Below the pieces are notes generated by a model that ran no database searches, had not been told where the DNA came from, and was given only the letters and a program-made list of their open reading frames with translations. A stretch of DNA of 64,000 nt from Bacteroidota bacterium. Its GTDB lineage: Bacteria > Bacteroidota > Rhodothermia > JANXDC01. Of this stretch, positions 24,567 through 30,986 are shown piece by piece. The stretch is from NCBI GenBank assembly GCA_025059945.1, contig JANXDC010000004.1:248001-312000 (forward strand), in the 5' to 3' direction. The position numbers and the translations under genes were made by a program. How positions within the stretch are numbered: the first letter of the stretch is position 1; every line of letters begins with the position of its first letter.

Positions 24567-25499
24567 CTAGCCCGATGCTGGGATATCAAGCTCAAAGCGC
24601 CCTACCGGAAGCTCGGGCCTTCGGATCCACGGATTAAGCAGGCGCACCAGCCGATATGAAAGCCCCTGCTGACGACACCAGGCCGCTAGATCTGCCACAG
24701 GGCCCTCGACCAGGACCGTGCGCGTAGGGTATTCCGGATAGGGTTCAAGACCCGATAAATCAAAGCCGAACCGATGCGGCTGCTCGAATATGGCCTTTAT
24801 GGCGGCGGCCTTGAGCACATACCGGGCCGTTTCATCGGCCAACCAGAGCTCGTAATAGCTGCGCGTTCCTTGCTGGCGTATGAGCGCCTCCAGCCTACCG
24901 GGGCCCAGATTATAGGCGGCGCCCGCCAAATGCCAGCTGCCAAAGCGCCTGTAGAGCTGATCCAGATAGCGCAGGGCGGCTTGGGTGGATTTCCGGAGGT
25001 GCAGGCGCTCATCTACGGCCTCATCCACCCGAAGCCCAAACTGACGGGCCACATCGGGCATAAACTGCCACAAGCCGGCCGCGCCAGCCGGCGATATGGC
25101 CTGAGGCAGGAGATCGCTTTCGGCCACGGCCAGATACTTCAAATCCTCCGGCAGGCCGCGACTGCGCAGTTCGGCCTCGATATAGCGGAAGTAACGCGCG
25201 CTGCGCTTGATGTGAAAGAAAACCTGAAACGGTCGGTAAACGAGCAGATACAACTCCCGCTCAAAGCGCTCCCGCACCTCAGGGTCTTTCAGGGGCACCG
25301 GCTCCCCGCAGAAGGATAGGCTATCCGGAAGCAGCAAAGCCCGAAACGGCTGCCAAGCGAGATCCGGGCCGCGCGCGGTCGAGCTCTGCCGATACCCCGC
25401 CCACCACCCCGCCCCAAGTAAGCTCACCCCCAGCAAGCAGCCCACAAAATAGCGCGCTTTTCTGCGCGAAAAGAGCTCAAAAGTTCGGTTTAAGCGCAT
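24567..25499 (-). CDS. Lytic transglycosylase (SLT/MltD-like)
   Basis: Peptidoglycan lytic transglycosylase of the GH23 fold. An N-terminal membrane anchor at 17-36 follows a basic segment. The catalytic domain contains KYLAVAESDLLP with Glu127 as catalytic acid, then SPAGAAGLWQFMP, and AAYNLGPGRL with the helper Tyr/Asn. After about residue 250 there is a short C-terminal segment instead of the LysM repeats seen in MltD. Its start lies inside the 3' end of the LOG gene (23-bp overlap). The operon runs from 28604. Confidence 0.88.
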   Translation of the reverse strand: MRLNRTFELFSRRKARYFVGCLLGVSLLGAGWWAGYRQSSTARGPDLAWQPFRALLLPDSLSFCGEPVPLKDPEVRERFERELYLLVYRPFQVFFHIKRSARYFRYIEAELRSRGLPEDLKYLAVAESDLLPQAISPAGAAGLWQFMPDVARQFGLRVDEAVDERLHLRKSTQAALRYLDQLYRRFGSWHLAGAAYNLGPGRLEALIRQQGTRSYYELWLADETARYVLKAAAIKAIFEQPHRFGFDLSGLEPYPEYPTRTVLVEGPVADLAAWCRQQGLSYRLVRLLNPWIRRPELPVGRFELDIPASG

Positions 25500-26196
25500 G
25501 CTCCTTGTAAAAGGTGTCGATCGTTTCGACGGCCTCTTGGGGCTCGTCCGTGAGGGAAAACAGAAACAGGTCCTCTAGCCCTATGTGCCCGGCTCCTAAA
25601 ACCGTCTGGCGCAACCAGTCGACAAGTCCTTGCCAATAGTCTCGGCCCATCAGCACGACGGGAAAGGGCGAGATCTTTTGCGTTTGAATGAGCGTAAGCG
25701 CTTCAAAAAGCTCATCTAAGGTGCCCAGGCCTCCGGGCAGCACAATGAAGCCCTGGGCGTATTTTACGAACATGACTTTGCGTACGAAGAAAAAGTCGAA
25801 CGTGAGCAGTTTATCGGGATCGATATAAGGGTTGGGGGTCTGCTCATGGGGCAGCTCGATGTTAAGACCCACAGAAGGGCCGCCGGCTTCCTGCGCCCCT
25901 CGATTAGCGGCCTCCATGATGCCCGGCCCGCCGCCTGTGATAACGCCATAGCCGTACTCGACAAGCAGGCGGGCGACTTGGCGGGCCATCTCATAGTAGG
26001 GGTTTCCGGGGCCGACCCGGGCCGAACCAAAAATGGACACGCAAGGCCCAAGGCGGCCTAGTTTTTCGAAACCCTCAACGAACTCGGCCATAATCCGAAA
26101 GGTCCGCCAGGCGTCTTGAATCGTGGCCTCCTGCCAGGCCTTCTGAACGCGTCGCTGGCGGCTTCGCGAGGATTCATATGGGGTGTGGTTGCGCAT
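25477..26196 (-). CDS. LOG-family (TIGR00730) Rossmann protein
   Basis: Lysine-decarboxylase-like LOG family, whose characterised members are nucleoside 5'-monophosphate phosphoribohydrolases. GGGPGIMEAAN at 88-98 is intact. The PGGxGTxxE motif reads PGGLGTLDE at 154-162, the form common in the larger LOG group. An N-terminal extension of about 50 residues precedes the core. It lies 12 bp after dapD. The physiological substrate in non-plant bacteria is not established. Confidence 0.85.
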   Translation of the reverse strand: MRNHTPYESSRSRQRRVQKAWQEATIQDAWRTFRIMAEFVEGFEKLGRLGPCVSIFGSARVGPGNPYYEMARQVARLLVEYGYGVITGGGPGIMEAANRGAQEAGGPSVGLNIELPHEQTPNPYIDPDKLLTFDFFFVRKVMFVKYAQGFIVLPGGLGTLDELFEALTLIQTQKISPFPVVLMGRDYWQGLVDWLRQTVLGAGHIGLEDLFLFSLTDEPQEAVETIDTFYKEHALKPNF

Positions 26197-26208: not shown

Positions 26209-27060
26209 TTATCGCACCGCGTCCTCCAGGGCCAGACGGGCTTCTGTGCTGGCATCTCGATACTTGACGATCACGGGAACGTAAAGCCCAATACCCTCTT
26301 CCTGTGCCAAGGTTCCCCGGTTGTGCGCAGCGCGCACGCCCGGTACGACCACGGCGCCCTCGGGCACGATCAGGGGTTGTCCGTTTTCCGCCCGCCAGAT
26401 CCGATCGCGCACCAGGTCATATAGCGGCGTGCTGGCGGTCAGCACCACGCTGGGCGCGATCACGGCTCGGCGCCGCACGATCGCGCCCTCCAGAATCGCC
26501 GCGTGAGCCCCCACGAAAGCCTCATCTTCGATGATCACGGGCAAAGCGCCCACGGGCTCGATTACGCCTCCGATCTGCACGCCGGCGCTCAGATGCACCC
26601 GCCGGCCGATTTGGGCGCAGCTTCCCACAAGCACATGCGAGTCGATCATCGCCCCCTCATCCACGTAAGCCCCCACGTTTACGTAACTGGGGGGCATAAG
26701 GATGACCCCCGGGGCCAGGTACGCCCCGTCGCGCACCGTGGTGCCTCCAGGCACGATGCGGACTCGCTCCCTTAGCGTGGTGGGCCGAACGGGCAGGGTG
26801 GCCTTATCGAAAAAGCGCCACGTGGGACCCGCCTGCACTTCGATGAGCTCTCCTAATCTGAACCCTAGTAGGATGCCCGCCTTGACCCACGCATGCACAC
26901 GCCAGCCCGCGGGGGCCTGGGGATCGGGCTCGGCGGCCCGGATGCGGCCCGTGCGCAGGGCCTCGAAGAGTTCCTGCACGCACCGGAGCGCCTCGCTGCG
27001 CTCCTTTCCTTCTAGGGGTCCGTGCGCGTAGCGTTCGATCCGCTCAGCTAGACTGCTCAT
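26209..27060 (-). CDS. dapD: Tetrahydrodipicolinate N-succinyltransferase
   Basis: Succinyl-CoA-dependent step of the succinylase branch of diaminopimelate/lysine synthesis. An N-terminal helical domain leads to a left-handed β-helix of hexapeptide repeats from about residue 105 to 230 (GAYLAPGVILMPPSYVNVGAYVDEG in overlapping turns, IDSHVLVGSCAQIG). WRVHAWVKAGILLGFRLG near 52-70 is characteristic of DapD. 283 aa. It begins 2 bp before the cupin stop and so sits in the same transcript as the RuBisCO-like gene. Confidence 0.93.
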   Translation of the reverse strand: MSSLAERIERYAHGPLEGKERSEALRCVQELFEALRTGRIRAAEPDPQAPAGWRVHAWVKAGILLGFRLGELIEVQAGPTWRFFDKATLPVRPTTLRERVRIVPGGTTVRDGAYLAPGVILMPPSYVNVGAYVDEGAMIDSHVLVGSCAQIGRRVHLSAGVQIGGVIEPVGALPVIIEDEAFVGAHAAILEGAIVRRRAVIAPSVVLTASTPLYDLVRDRIWRAENGQPLIVPEGAVVVPGVRAAHNRGTLAQEEGIGLYVPVIVKYRDASTEARLALEDAVR

Positions 27061-27061
27061 C

Positions 27062-27496
27062 TTAGACCCGAATAAAAGCGGCGATCTCTGGGTTTTGAGC
27101 TAGCTCAGCTAGCACTTGTTCCGTGGGCAGCTCCGGCCGATCGCGTTCGGAATCCACAAGGCACAAAAACCCCAACACCTCCTCATCGGCCCGAAATTGG
27201 TGCCAGTGACCCGGCGGTATATAGAGCACATCAAAGGGCCTAACGTCGTAGATCCGATCCCCGACAAGGACCCGGCCGCGGCCCCGGAGTACGATTACGG
27301 CGTGCGCATGCGCGTGACGCTCCAAGCTCGAATAACCGCCGGGATCGATCTCAAAATATCGCAGCTCGCAGCGGAGCCCGGCCACGTTATCCAGCAGCGT
27401 CTGCCGGCTGATGGCCCGATAGTGGGTTCCCTCTGGCTTATAGGCCCGAACCGGCACATCCGACCAGCGAAAGTTGGGCTCAAAACGTCGGATCAT
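27062..27496 (-). CDS. Cupin protein, candidate methylthioxylulose-5-phosphate methylsulfurylase
   Basis: 144-aa single-domain cupin. Motif 1 carries His61, His63 and His65 (RHAHAHAVIVLRGRGRV) and motif 2 His97 and His99 (PPGHWHQF), giving a plausible Mn/Fe site. The start ATG at 27496 lies 17 bp inside the end of the RuBisCO-like gene, so the two are probably translationally coupled. In Rhodospirillum rubrum a cupin encoded next to a RuBisCO-like protein removes methanethiol from methylthioxylulose 5-phosphate to give 1-deoxyxylulose 5-phosphate. The same role here is inferred from context and not visible in the cupin itself. The frame continues upstream to 27763, but that part is a shadow of the neighbouring gene. 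Confidence 0.75.
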   Translation of the reverse strand: MIRRFEPNFRWSDVPVRAYKPEGTHYRAISRQTLLDNVAGLRCELRYFEIDPGGYSSLERHAHAHAVIVLRGRGRVLVGDRIYDVRPFDVLYIPPGHWHQFRADEEVLGFLCLVDSERDRPELPTEQVLAELAQNPEIAAFIRV

Positions 27497-28604
27497 CGCG
27501 CATACTCCGGATTGTGAGCCTCTGTACGTTCTCCACAAAGGCGCGGCTGCGCTCCCGTATCCGGGGGCCGGCCTCGTAAAGAGCGCTCCCCATGAGCAAA
27601 ATCGCATGCCGACCGTAAAACCGAAGGGCCGCTTCCAGGCGCTCCCAGTGCAGGCCTCCGGCCGGCACGGGAAAGGCCGGGCGCAGCGGCGGCCAAGGCC
27701 CTCGCAATCGCTCGGCGATCCTGGTGCAGGTGGCCTCATCGTAGGCGAAGCGGCCGCCGGCATGCGGGAAAATAACGGCGTCGGCGCCTAGAAGCCGAAA
27801 CAGCCGACCCAGAAGCGCCTCCGGCGCTATGCGCGCCGCACCCCCCAGGGCGGGATGGGCCAAAAAGACCATATCCGGAAAGCGCCGCACCAGGCTCTCA
27901 AAAACGGGCAGGCCTACAAGCATCGGGGCGATGAGCACGACTTGTACGCCCAGGCTGCGCGCCAGGCCTAGCTGGGCCTCCAGCTCCTCAGGCCGGCCGA
28001 TGAGGTTTGGGGCGTACTGGGACCGGCGTCCCGTGCGGCGCGCCGCCTCTTCTACGGCCTCCTGACAGCGCCGCACGCGTTCCGCAAAGGGGCAAAACGG
28101 GTGATCGGCTAGCCCGTGATCATCCTTGATCAGGTCGATGCCGGCCTCGGCGAAAAGCCGGCACAGCTCCGCTATAGCCTCCGGCCCCAGCCCCATGGGC
28201 TTTAAGGCGGTGCACGTCAGGGGCCGATCCCAGACCTGTAGCAGCGCCCGCAGCCCCGCAATGCCGTGCTGCGGACCCGGAAAAAGGCCCCGGACGGATT
28301 CCGAAAGCTCCACATCCCATAGCTCCACATCGGGCTGCAGGGAGGAGTTGCCAAAGAGCACGTTTAGCAGCTGCGCCGGGTTGGCGGCTATCGCGGAGGC
28401 CGCATACCGGATCCGCGCCCGCACGCCGCCCTCGGGATCGGGCTCTAGGGCCTCCACATGCCCTATGATGTGGCCGCGCACAAAGGGATCCTGTACCAGC
28501 GGGTCCGGCAGCTCCACCGTCTGCTCCAGCGCCAGCGTCCGGGCGCGCTGTTTGGCCTCTTTTTCCGAAACGCGCAGCCTATAGGTGGCCCACAGGTACT
28601 CCAT
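27480..28604 (-). CDS. RuBisCO-like protein (form IV)
   Basis: 374-aa TIM-barrel member of the RuBisCO superfamily that should not fix CO2. Lys135 (TALKP) matches catalytic Lys175 and Lys160 in LIKDDHGLA matches the carbamylated Lys201; Asp162 matches Asp203, but Glu204 is His163. His250 (AHPAL) matches His294. The flexible loop-6 lysine (GKLEG) is missing: the corresponding region reads IFPHAGGRF at 278-286, and the phosphate-binding GGG reads LMGS. Characterised relatives are enolases or isomerases in methionine salvage. The directly overlapping cupin gene points to methylthioribulose-1-phosphate isomerisation. It is the first gene of a five-gene minus-strand operon. Confidence 0.92.
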   Translation of the reverse strand: MEYLWATYRLRVSEKEAKQRARTLALEQTVELPDPLVQDPFVRGHIIGHVEALEPDPEGGVRARIRYAASAIAANPAQLLNVLFGNSSLQPDVELWDVELSESVRGLFPGPQHGIAGLRALLQVWDRPLTCTALKPMGLGPEAIAELCRLFAEAGIDLIKDDHGLADHPFCPFAERVRRCQEAVEEAARRTGRRSQYAPNLIGRPEELEAQLGLARSLGVQVVLIAPMLVGLPVFESLVRRFPDMVFLAHPALGGAARIAPEALLGRLFRLLGADAVIFPHAGGRFAYDEATCTRIAERLRGPWPPLRPAFPVPAGGLHWERLEAALRFYGRHAILLMGSALYEAGPRIRERSRAFVENVQRLTIRSMRDDPTF

Positions 28605-29729: not shown

Positions 29730-30986
29730 TTAGGTTTTCTGGGGCTTTTTGCGCGCAGCCGGAAACAGGATGTTGTTCAGAATCAGCCGATATCCGGGTG
29801 AGTTCTTGTGCAAGGCCAGGTCCGTTGGCGGGTCTCCCACGAAATGCTGATAATCCTCCGGGTCATGTCCCCCGTAGAAGGTGAACGTGCCCTTTCCGTA
29901 GTTGCCGTGCAGGTAGCGGACCTCCTCGCGCCCCGGCGCCTCGGCCAAGATGACCACGGACTCCTTGATGAGGGATTTCCGAAAGTTCGTCGTCTGCCCC
30001 ATAAAGCCCTTGATCACGCTTGTGTGGTTTTGGGTGAGCATCGTGGGCACGGGGTCGTGTTTAGCGGAAAACTCGAAGAGCACGAAATAGTCCAGAAGCG
30101 GGTTCTGAAGGGTAGGCGGCGGCTGCACGTCGATGTTGGAGTGCTCCGTCTCGTACGGATTCAGGCTCACGCGGAAGCCGTGGAAGGCGAGCGTGCGGCT
30201 GAAGTCGAGCTTTTCCTGCGCATCGGCCGTAACGGGCGTGCCGTCCAGCTCCGGAGGCACGATATCGATGCCCTCGGCGGCAAGGGCGATATCGAGGGTT
30301 TCGGTCGCCGTGCACATGGCGAACAAAAATCCCCCTTGGGCCACGTATTCCTTGATGGCGCGCGCGACGGCTTTTTTGAGCTCAGAGACCGTCGAAAAGC
30401 CCAGCTTGCGGGCCATCTCCATCTGGTCGCGTTGCTGCCGAACAAACCAAGGCATGTGCCGATACAGAGCCCAGAAGCGGCTGTACTGGCCCGTGAAGTC
30501 CTCGTGGTGCAAATGCAGCCAGTCGTATTCGGAGAGCTTGCCTTGCAATACCTCCTCATCCCAGATCTTGTCATAGGGCACCTCGGCGTAGGTCAAGGCG
30601 AGCGTGACGGCATCGTCCCAGGGCAGCGAATGCGGCGGGGTGTAGACGGCGATCTTGGGGGCTTTTTCGAGCCGAACGGCGTCCATGTTGGAGTCTTCGC
30701 TCATGATCTGGCTCAGGATCTGGGCCGCCTGGGCGGCCGATAGCTTCTCGTAGAAGACGCCTCGAACGCGCAGCTCCCGCTCCAGCGCCGCAAAGTCCTC
30801 GGTCAGAAACGAGCCGCCCCGATAGTTGAGAAGCCAGTCCACGTCCACCCCTTGGGCCAGCACCCAGTAGGCGACGCCGTAGGCCTTTAGGTGATCCGTC
30901 TGTCGCTCGTCCATGGGGATGAGGATTTTCTGCGCCTCTGTCCAATCGGGAACCGCAAGCAACAGCGCACAGAGCCATCGGATCAT
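29730..30986 (-). CDS. Secreted Bacteroidota protein often labelled 'asparagine synthetase B'
   Basis: 418 aa. The signal peptide ends at TEAQ (residue 19). The sequence is strongly conserved across Bacteroidota: ILIPMDERQTDHLKAYG, DVDWLLNYRGGSF, DWLHLHHEDFTGQY, GFLFAMCTATETLDIAL, MLTQNHTSVIKGFMGQTT and GKGTFTFYGGHDPEDYQHF. It has no N-terminal Cys glutaminase, no PPi-loop and no other asparagine-synthetase domain, so that database name is probably a misannotation. The MCTA Cys, the several His residues and the class I amidotransferase-like layout suggest an enzyme fold, but no activity is known. The start overlaps the upstream TPR gene by 4 bp, which suggests a joint envelope role. Confidence 0.85.
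   Translation of the reverse strand: MIRWLCALLLAVPDWTEAQKILIPMDERQTDHLKAYGVAYWVLAQGVDVDWLLNYRGGSFLTEDFAALERELRVRGVFYEKLSAAQAAQILSQIMSEDSNMDAVRLEKAPKIAVYTPPHSLPWDDAVTLALTYAEVPYDKIWDEEVLQGKLSEYDWLHLHHEDFTGQYSRFWALYRHMPWFVRQQRDQMEMARKLGFSTVSELKKAVARAIKEYVAQGGFLFAMCTATETLDIALAAEGIDIVPPELDGTPVTADAQEKLDFSRTLAFHGFRVSLNPYETEHSNIDVQPPPTLQNPLLDYFVLFEFSAKHDPVPTMLTQNHTSVIKGFMGQTTNFRKSLIKESVVILAEAPGREEVRYLHGNYGKGTFTFYGGHDPEDYQHFVGDPPTDLALHKNSPGYRLILNNILFPAARKKPQKT

Follow-up and report, generated by a model that had tools for sequence, protein, structure and literature searches.

The methylthioadenosine (MTA)-isoprenoid shunt of Rhodospirillum rubrum employs a RuBisCO-like protein (RLP), Rru_A1998, and a cupin, Rru_A2000, the latter being the methylsulfurylase (PMC4958253). 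The corresponding genes of Rhodopseudomonas palustris, RPA2169-RPA2170, encode RLP1 and a cupin immediately downstream of it. RLP1 converts methylthioribulose-1-P into methylthioxylulose-5-P and methylthioribulose-5-P in a 3:1 ratio, and its MTRu-1P isomerase activity was found both in vitro and in vivo, with support from mutants and metabolites (PMC5893883). A form IV RLP with a cupin-fold partner also takes part in MTA salvage in Bacillus, where MtnW is the DK-MTP-1-P enolase. MtnW, however, belongs to another clade and retains KDDE, its partner cupin (ARD) is a dioxygenase, and the pathway needs MtnB, MtnX and MtnD. Pairs of an RLP and a cupin have already been noted in Meiothermus, Nitrococcus and Halorhodospira (mBio 2016, PMC4958253).

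The pair described here belongs to a genome of the phylum Rhodothermota and lies within a stretch of 64,000 nucleotides, here referred to as the window. Its features are the following:

27480-28604, minus strand: RLP of 374 aa, a predicted 5-methylthioribulose-1-phosphate 1,3-isomerase of the DeepYkr-type RLPs
28116-28127, minus strand: KDDH motif, RLP residues 160-163, which replaces the KDDE of RuBisCO
27747-27758, minus strand: GGRF motif, with Arg285 aligned to the loop-6 Lys334 of RuBisCO
27480-27496, minus strand: overlap of the RLP end and the cupin start, 17 bp in the sequence
27505-27508, minus strand: GGAG, a Shine-Dalgarno-like sequence 8 nt ahead of the cupin ATG
27062-27496, minus strand: cupin of 144 aa, a predicted 1-methylthioxylulose-5-phosphate methylsulfurylase
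27302-27322, minus strand: cupin motif 1, with E59, H61, H63 and H65 as probable metal ligands
27200-27202, minus strand: the cupin motif 2 His, H99, a probable metal ligand

The coordinates agree with the 17-bp overlap reported in the first-pass annotation, and the overlap likely results in translational coupling of the two genes. Homology supports the 144-aa cupin, with its predicted start, over a longer frame of 233 aa present in the raw ORF list. No riboswitch was found upstream of the RLP gene, the Rfam search having returned only tRNAs in the window.

The RLP is the sole PF00016 protein of the window's genome, and the profile search found no other protein of the RuBisCO family there. Its closest solved structure is PDB 3qfw (E 4e-96), an RLP from R. 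palustris. We infer that 3qfw is RLP1, since RLP2 has a separate entry, 2qyg, and since 3qfw clusters with those loci of Rhodopseudomonas in which the cupin is directly downstream. A maximum-likelihood tree built from 71 proteins, with 3qfw among them and without Rru_A1998, places the window RLP and 3qfw within one 44-row clade with a support of 100/98, and MtnW forms a separate clade of its own (100/100). The first-pass annotation had proposed a form IV tree as a check, with the R. rubrum protein on one side and MtnW on the other. The separation from MtnW stands, and the grouping holds for R. palustris RLP1, the counterpart via which membership of the form IV class of the R. rubrum RLP is judged.

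Identity between the window RLP and the RLPs of Rhodopseudomonas is only 46-47%. The window RLP and R. palustris RLP1 share the supported clade, KDDH, the loop-6 Arg and a cupin immediately downstream. The change from KDDE to KDDH and the missing loop-6 Lys had been correctly read at the outset. In the alignment, His occupies the E204 position in 86 of the 87 members of the RLP clade and Arg the K334 position in all 87, and R. palustris RLP1 has both. Judged by this alignment, the two substitutions are marks of the RLP clade and not peculiar to the window RLP. The window RLP has Ser where the phosphate loop of RuBisCO has Gly (G404).

Several other RLP lineages were encountered. Rhodothermia families f2, f4, f16 and f18 (L010-L031) have RLPs of a sister clade, 32-42% identical to the window RLP and accompanied by the same cupin and mtnA; one class contains two RLP lineages. 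Two Rhizobiaceae plasmids (L132, L133) carry a different KDDH RLP clade in a cluster of mtnA, a Dxs-N-like gene, transketolase-C and the RLP, with no cupin nearby, and a more distant RLP on a Vibrio plasmid (L134) lies beside two transketolase halves, sugar transport and an FGGY kinase. These three clusters possibly represent another, transketolase-based salvage pathway.

The earlier reading had named a cupin unrelated to the methylsulfurylase among the findings that would speak against it. The best solved relative of the window cupin is Rru_A2000 itself (3jzv, E 6e-43), followed by 3kgz and 3ibm, and the next cupin family appears only at E 1e-6. E59, H61, H63, H65 and H99 are conserved at the level of at least 95% in an alignment of 81 cupins. 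This homology identifies the window cupin as orthologous to the methylsulfurylase of R. rubrum.

The RLP, counted as a strong match, and the cupin are confined to the identical 31 of 100 related genomes; G044, whose RuBisCO-family match is weak and divergent, was left out of the RLP count. These relatives are Rhodothermia, because a named Rhodothermus MAG has an RLP that matches the one in G003 at 94% identity. The two genes are about 5-12 kb apart in Rhodothermus (about 10 kb), in genus g9 and in G026, and are found on separate contigs in G027. Within genera g9, g13 and g19, each species has either both genes or neither. Since the co-occurrence holds where the genes lie apart or on different contigs, the association is more than adjacency. 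MtnA scores over its cut-off in 31/31 genomes with the RLP versus 16/69 without it (Fisher p ~2e-14, uncorrected for the relatedness of the genomes). Sixteen relatives, G008, G022, G071 and G073 among them, have MtnA over the cut-off without the RLP, the cupin or a full ARD match.

A scan of public genomes places the cupin directly downstream of the RLP, on the same strand, in 60 of 80 named loci from nine phyla. The pair is present in at least nine phyla among the 80 loci, namely Pseudomonadota, Verrucomicrobiota, Gemmatimonadota, Acidobacteriota, Chloroflexota, Deinococcota, Actinomycetota, Vulcanimicrobiota and Rhodothermota; mtnA adjoins the RLP in none of the 80. Two MAG contigs labelled Klebsiella pneumoniae (L046, L105) bear the pair and look mislabelled. 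The literature searched yielded no paper that places the RLP-cupin shunt in Rhodothermota, and to this extent the route is undescribed in the lineage, as had been supposed; the pair as such was, however, known outside Proteobacteria, in Meiothermus (PMC4958253).

In the window's genome, MtnA is encoded at G000:C10:74786-75757 (448 bits against a cut-off of 279) and Dxr at G000:C4:4413-5537 (464 bits), and Dxs is present. No PF03079 match (MtnD/ARD) and no PF00596 match (class II aldolase family) were found in the window's genome; with no protein of the latter family, it lacks both MtnB and the DHAP-shunt enzyme Ald2, and in this it differs from R. palustris, which has a DHAP-methanethiol shunt of its own. 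A complete conventional methionine salvage pathway, which would have spoken against the first reading, is therefore missing. The search for mtn genes proposed there succeeded for mtnA and for the absence of MtnB and MtnD, but yielded no canonical mtnP: nothing exceeds the MTAP cut-off in the window's genome, where two purine nucleoside phosphorylases score below it, and no MtnN-like nucleosidase was found.

With no match to a canonical MTA phosphorylase or nucleosidase, the step would have to fall to a purine nucleoside phosphorylase. The genome has only two PF01048 proteins (L113:8030-8911 and L114:6090-7457), and these are purine nucleoside phosphorylases of the trimeric kind. At the base-recognition position one has Asp, in a Thr-Asp-Glu that replaces the Asn of 6-oxopurine enzymes, and the other has Asn. 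Mutant studies of a Thermus enzyme reportedly indicate that Asp at this position favours 6-aminopurines. Thermus thermophilus has a phosphorylase active on 6-aminopurines only (PMC11430614). The Asp-type protein may be the MTA phosphorylase and is the candidate for this step.

In the proposed pathway, MTA would be converted, presumably by a phosphorylase, to 5-methylthioribose-1-P, from which MtnA, encoded elsewhere in the genome, would form 5-methylthioribulose-1-P. The RLP would isomerise this compound to 1-methylthioxylulose-5-P. The cupin, probably together with a low-molecular-weight thiol, would then remove the methylthio group to leave 1-deoxyxylulose-5-P, the substrate passed on to Dxr, and the methylthio group would proceed through a mixed disulfide to methanethiol and methionine synthesis. 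The pair very probably represents the committed part of the MTA-isoprenoid shunt, with enzyme activities predicted from the relatives described above. The support for the shunt consists of homology, clade membership, co-occurrence, the presence of MtnA, Dxs and Dxr and the absence of MtnB, Ald2 and MtnD; counted against it are the lack of a canonical MtnP or MtnN, the lack of any sign of glutathione synthetase and the change of G404 to Ser in the RLP. The two-step route like that of R. rubrum, as originally proposed for this locus, is upheld by the RLP clade, cupin orthology, active-site residues and co-occurrence.

The R. rubrum methylsulfurylase uses glutathione. The window's genome shares with R. 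rubrum the cupin orthologue, MtnA and the MEP pathway, but it differs in the phylum, in the dapD gene downstream of the pair, in the lack of a canonical MTA phosphorylase and in having a bacillithiol gene and no glutathione synthetase match. All 25 Rhodothermia examined for BshC, the bacillithiol gene, have it, the window's genome among them. The window's genome, its congener, Rhodothermus and G009 gave no match to the glutathione synthetase ATP-grasp (GshB family). These two results make bacillithiol a plausible co-substrate, and the thiol may differ from that of R. rubrum. Such a difference among organisms was expected by Danchin and Sekowska (PMC6302742). The search for glutathione synthesis, on the other hand, covered the GshB family alone, with GshA and the bifunctional GshF types outside it. 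That the shunt runs with bacillithiol instead of glutathione, a cofactor variant compatible with the main reading, is possible but somewhat doubtful.

A main role of the pair in the use of other 5'-deoxynucleoside sugars, with MTA salvage secondary, is quite improbable. The chemistry of MtnA and the RLP would not require sulfur, and 5'-deoxyadenosine could be a substrate for the genome's purine nucleoside phosphorylases; 5-deoxyribose derived from radical SAM by-products, for example, would then yield DXP directly and the cupin would be unneeded. A cupin would be pointless on a sulfur-free sugar, yet it accompanies the RLP in 31/31 genomes. The assignment of the RLP as an MtnW-type enolase of conventional methionine salvage, with the cupin as the acireductone dioxygenase MtnD, is rejected as extremely improbable: MtnW models give the top NCBIfam scores and MtnW operons include a cupin-fold protein, presumably ARD (L135), but the window RLP is far under the MtnW cut-offs (181 vs 409 bits and 138 vs 514), lies outside the MtnW clade and has KDDH, and the cupin has no ARD match in a genome devoid of MtnB-family and MtnD proteins.

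The RLP-cupin pair, read as part of the shunt, is followed by two genes outside the pathway:

26209-27060, minus strand: dapD, tetrahydrodipicolinate N-succinyltransferase (NF008808, 290 bits, over the cut-off)
25477-26196, minus strand: LOG-family (TIGR00730) nucleotide hydrolase, further downstream in this gene run and syntenic in G001 only

The continuation of the gene run into dapD is as first described, dapD starting 1 nt past the cupin stop, and judged by this spacing dapD probably belongs to the RLP-cupin transcription unit. Only the one congener, at 70-87% identity, preserves the run of RLP, cupin, dapD, LOG and transglycosylase; none of the other loci examined has it. A functional partnership of dapD with the pair was rejected, as the adjacency occurs within the same genus only and in 0/80 named loci and 0/5 other relatives. 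The adjacency left unexplained in the first-pass annotation is real, and the linkage now looks incidental, a case of local gene packing at the genus level. At 29730-30986 on the minus strand, the window also encodes a 418-aa protein that has no Pfam or NCBIfam match and is 87% identical in the congener.

Dxr is present in all 28 Rhodothermia tested. Nothing above the transketolase-like level was found for Dxs in Rhodothermus (G003, G013), G009, G019, G017, G025 and G090; the absence of Dxs is a wider known puzzle (PMC10663253). All seven genomes have Dxr; G003, G013, G009 and G019 possess the RLP-cupin shunt, and G017, G025 and G090 do not. Because these last three lack both Dxs and the RLP, the class must have some other DXP source, and the shunt is unlikely to be a general substitute for Dxs across it. 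It is likewise improbable that Rhodothermus, the G009 lineage and G019 physiologically require the shunt as a supply of deoxyxylulose phosphate, instead of running it as a side stream.

The pair in the window is well supported as a fresh occurrence of the pathway known from R. rubrum and R. palustris, and not as a new type of system. Two testable questions follow from it: can bacillithiol serve the cupin, and is isoprenoid synthesis supplied by the shunt in genomes that lack Dxs? The pair would extend an oxygen-independent, methanethiol-producing route of sulfur salvage into Rhodothermota.
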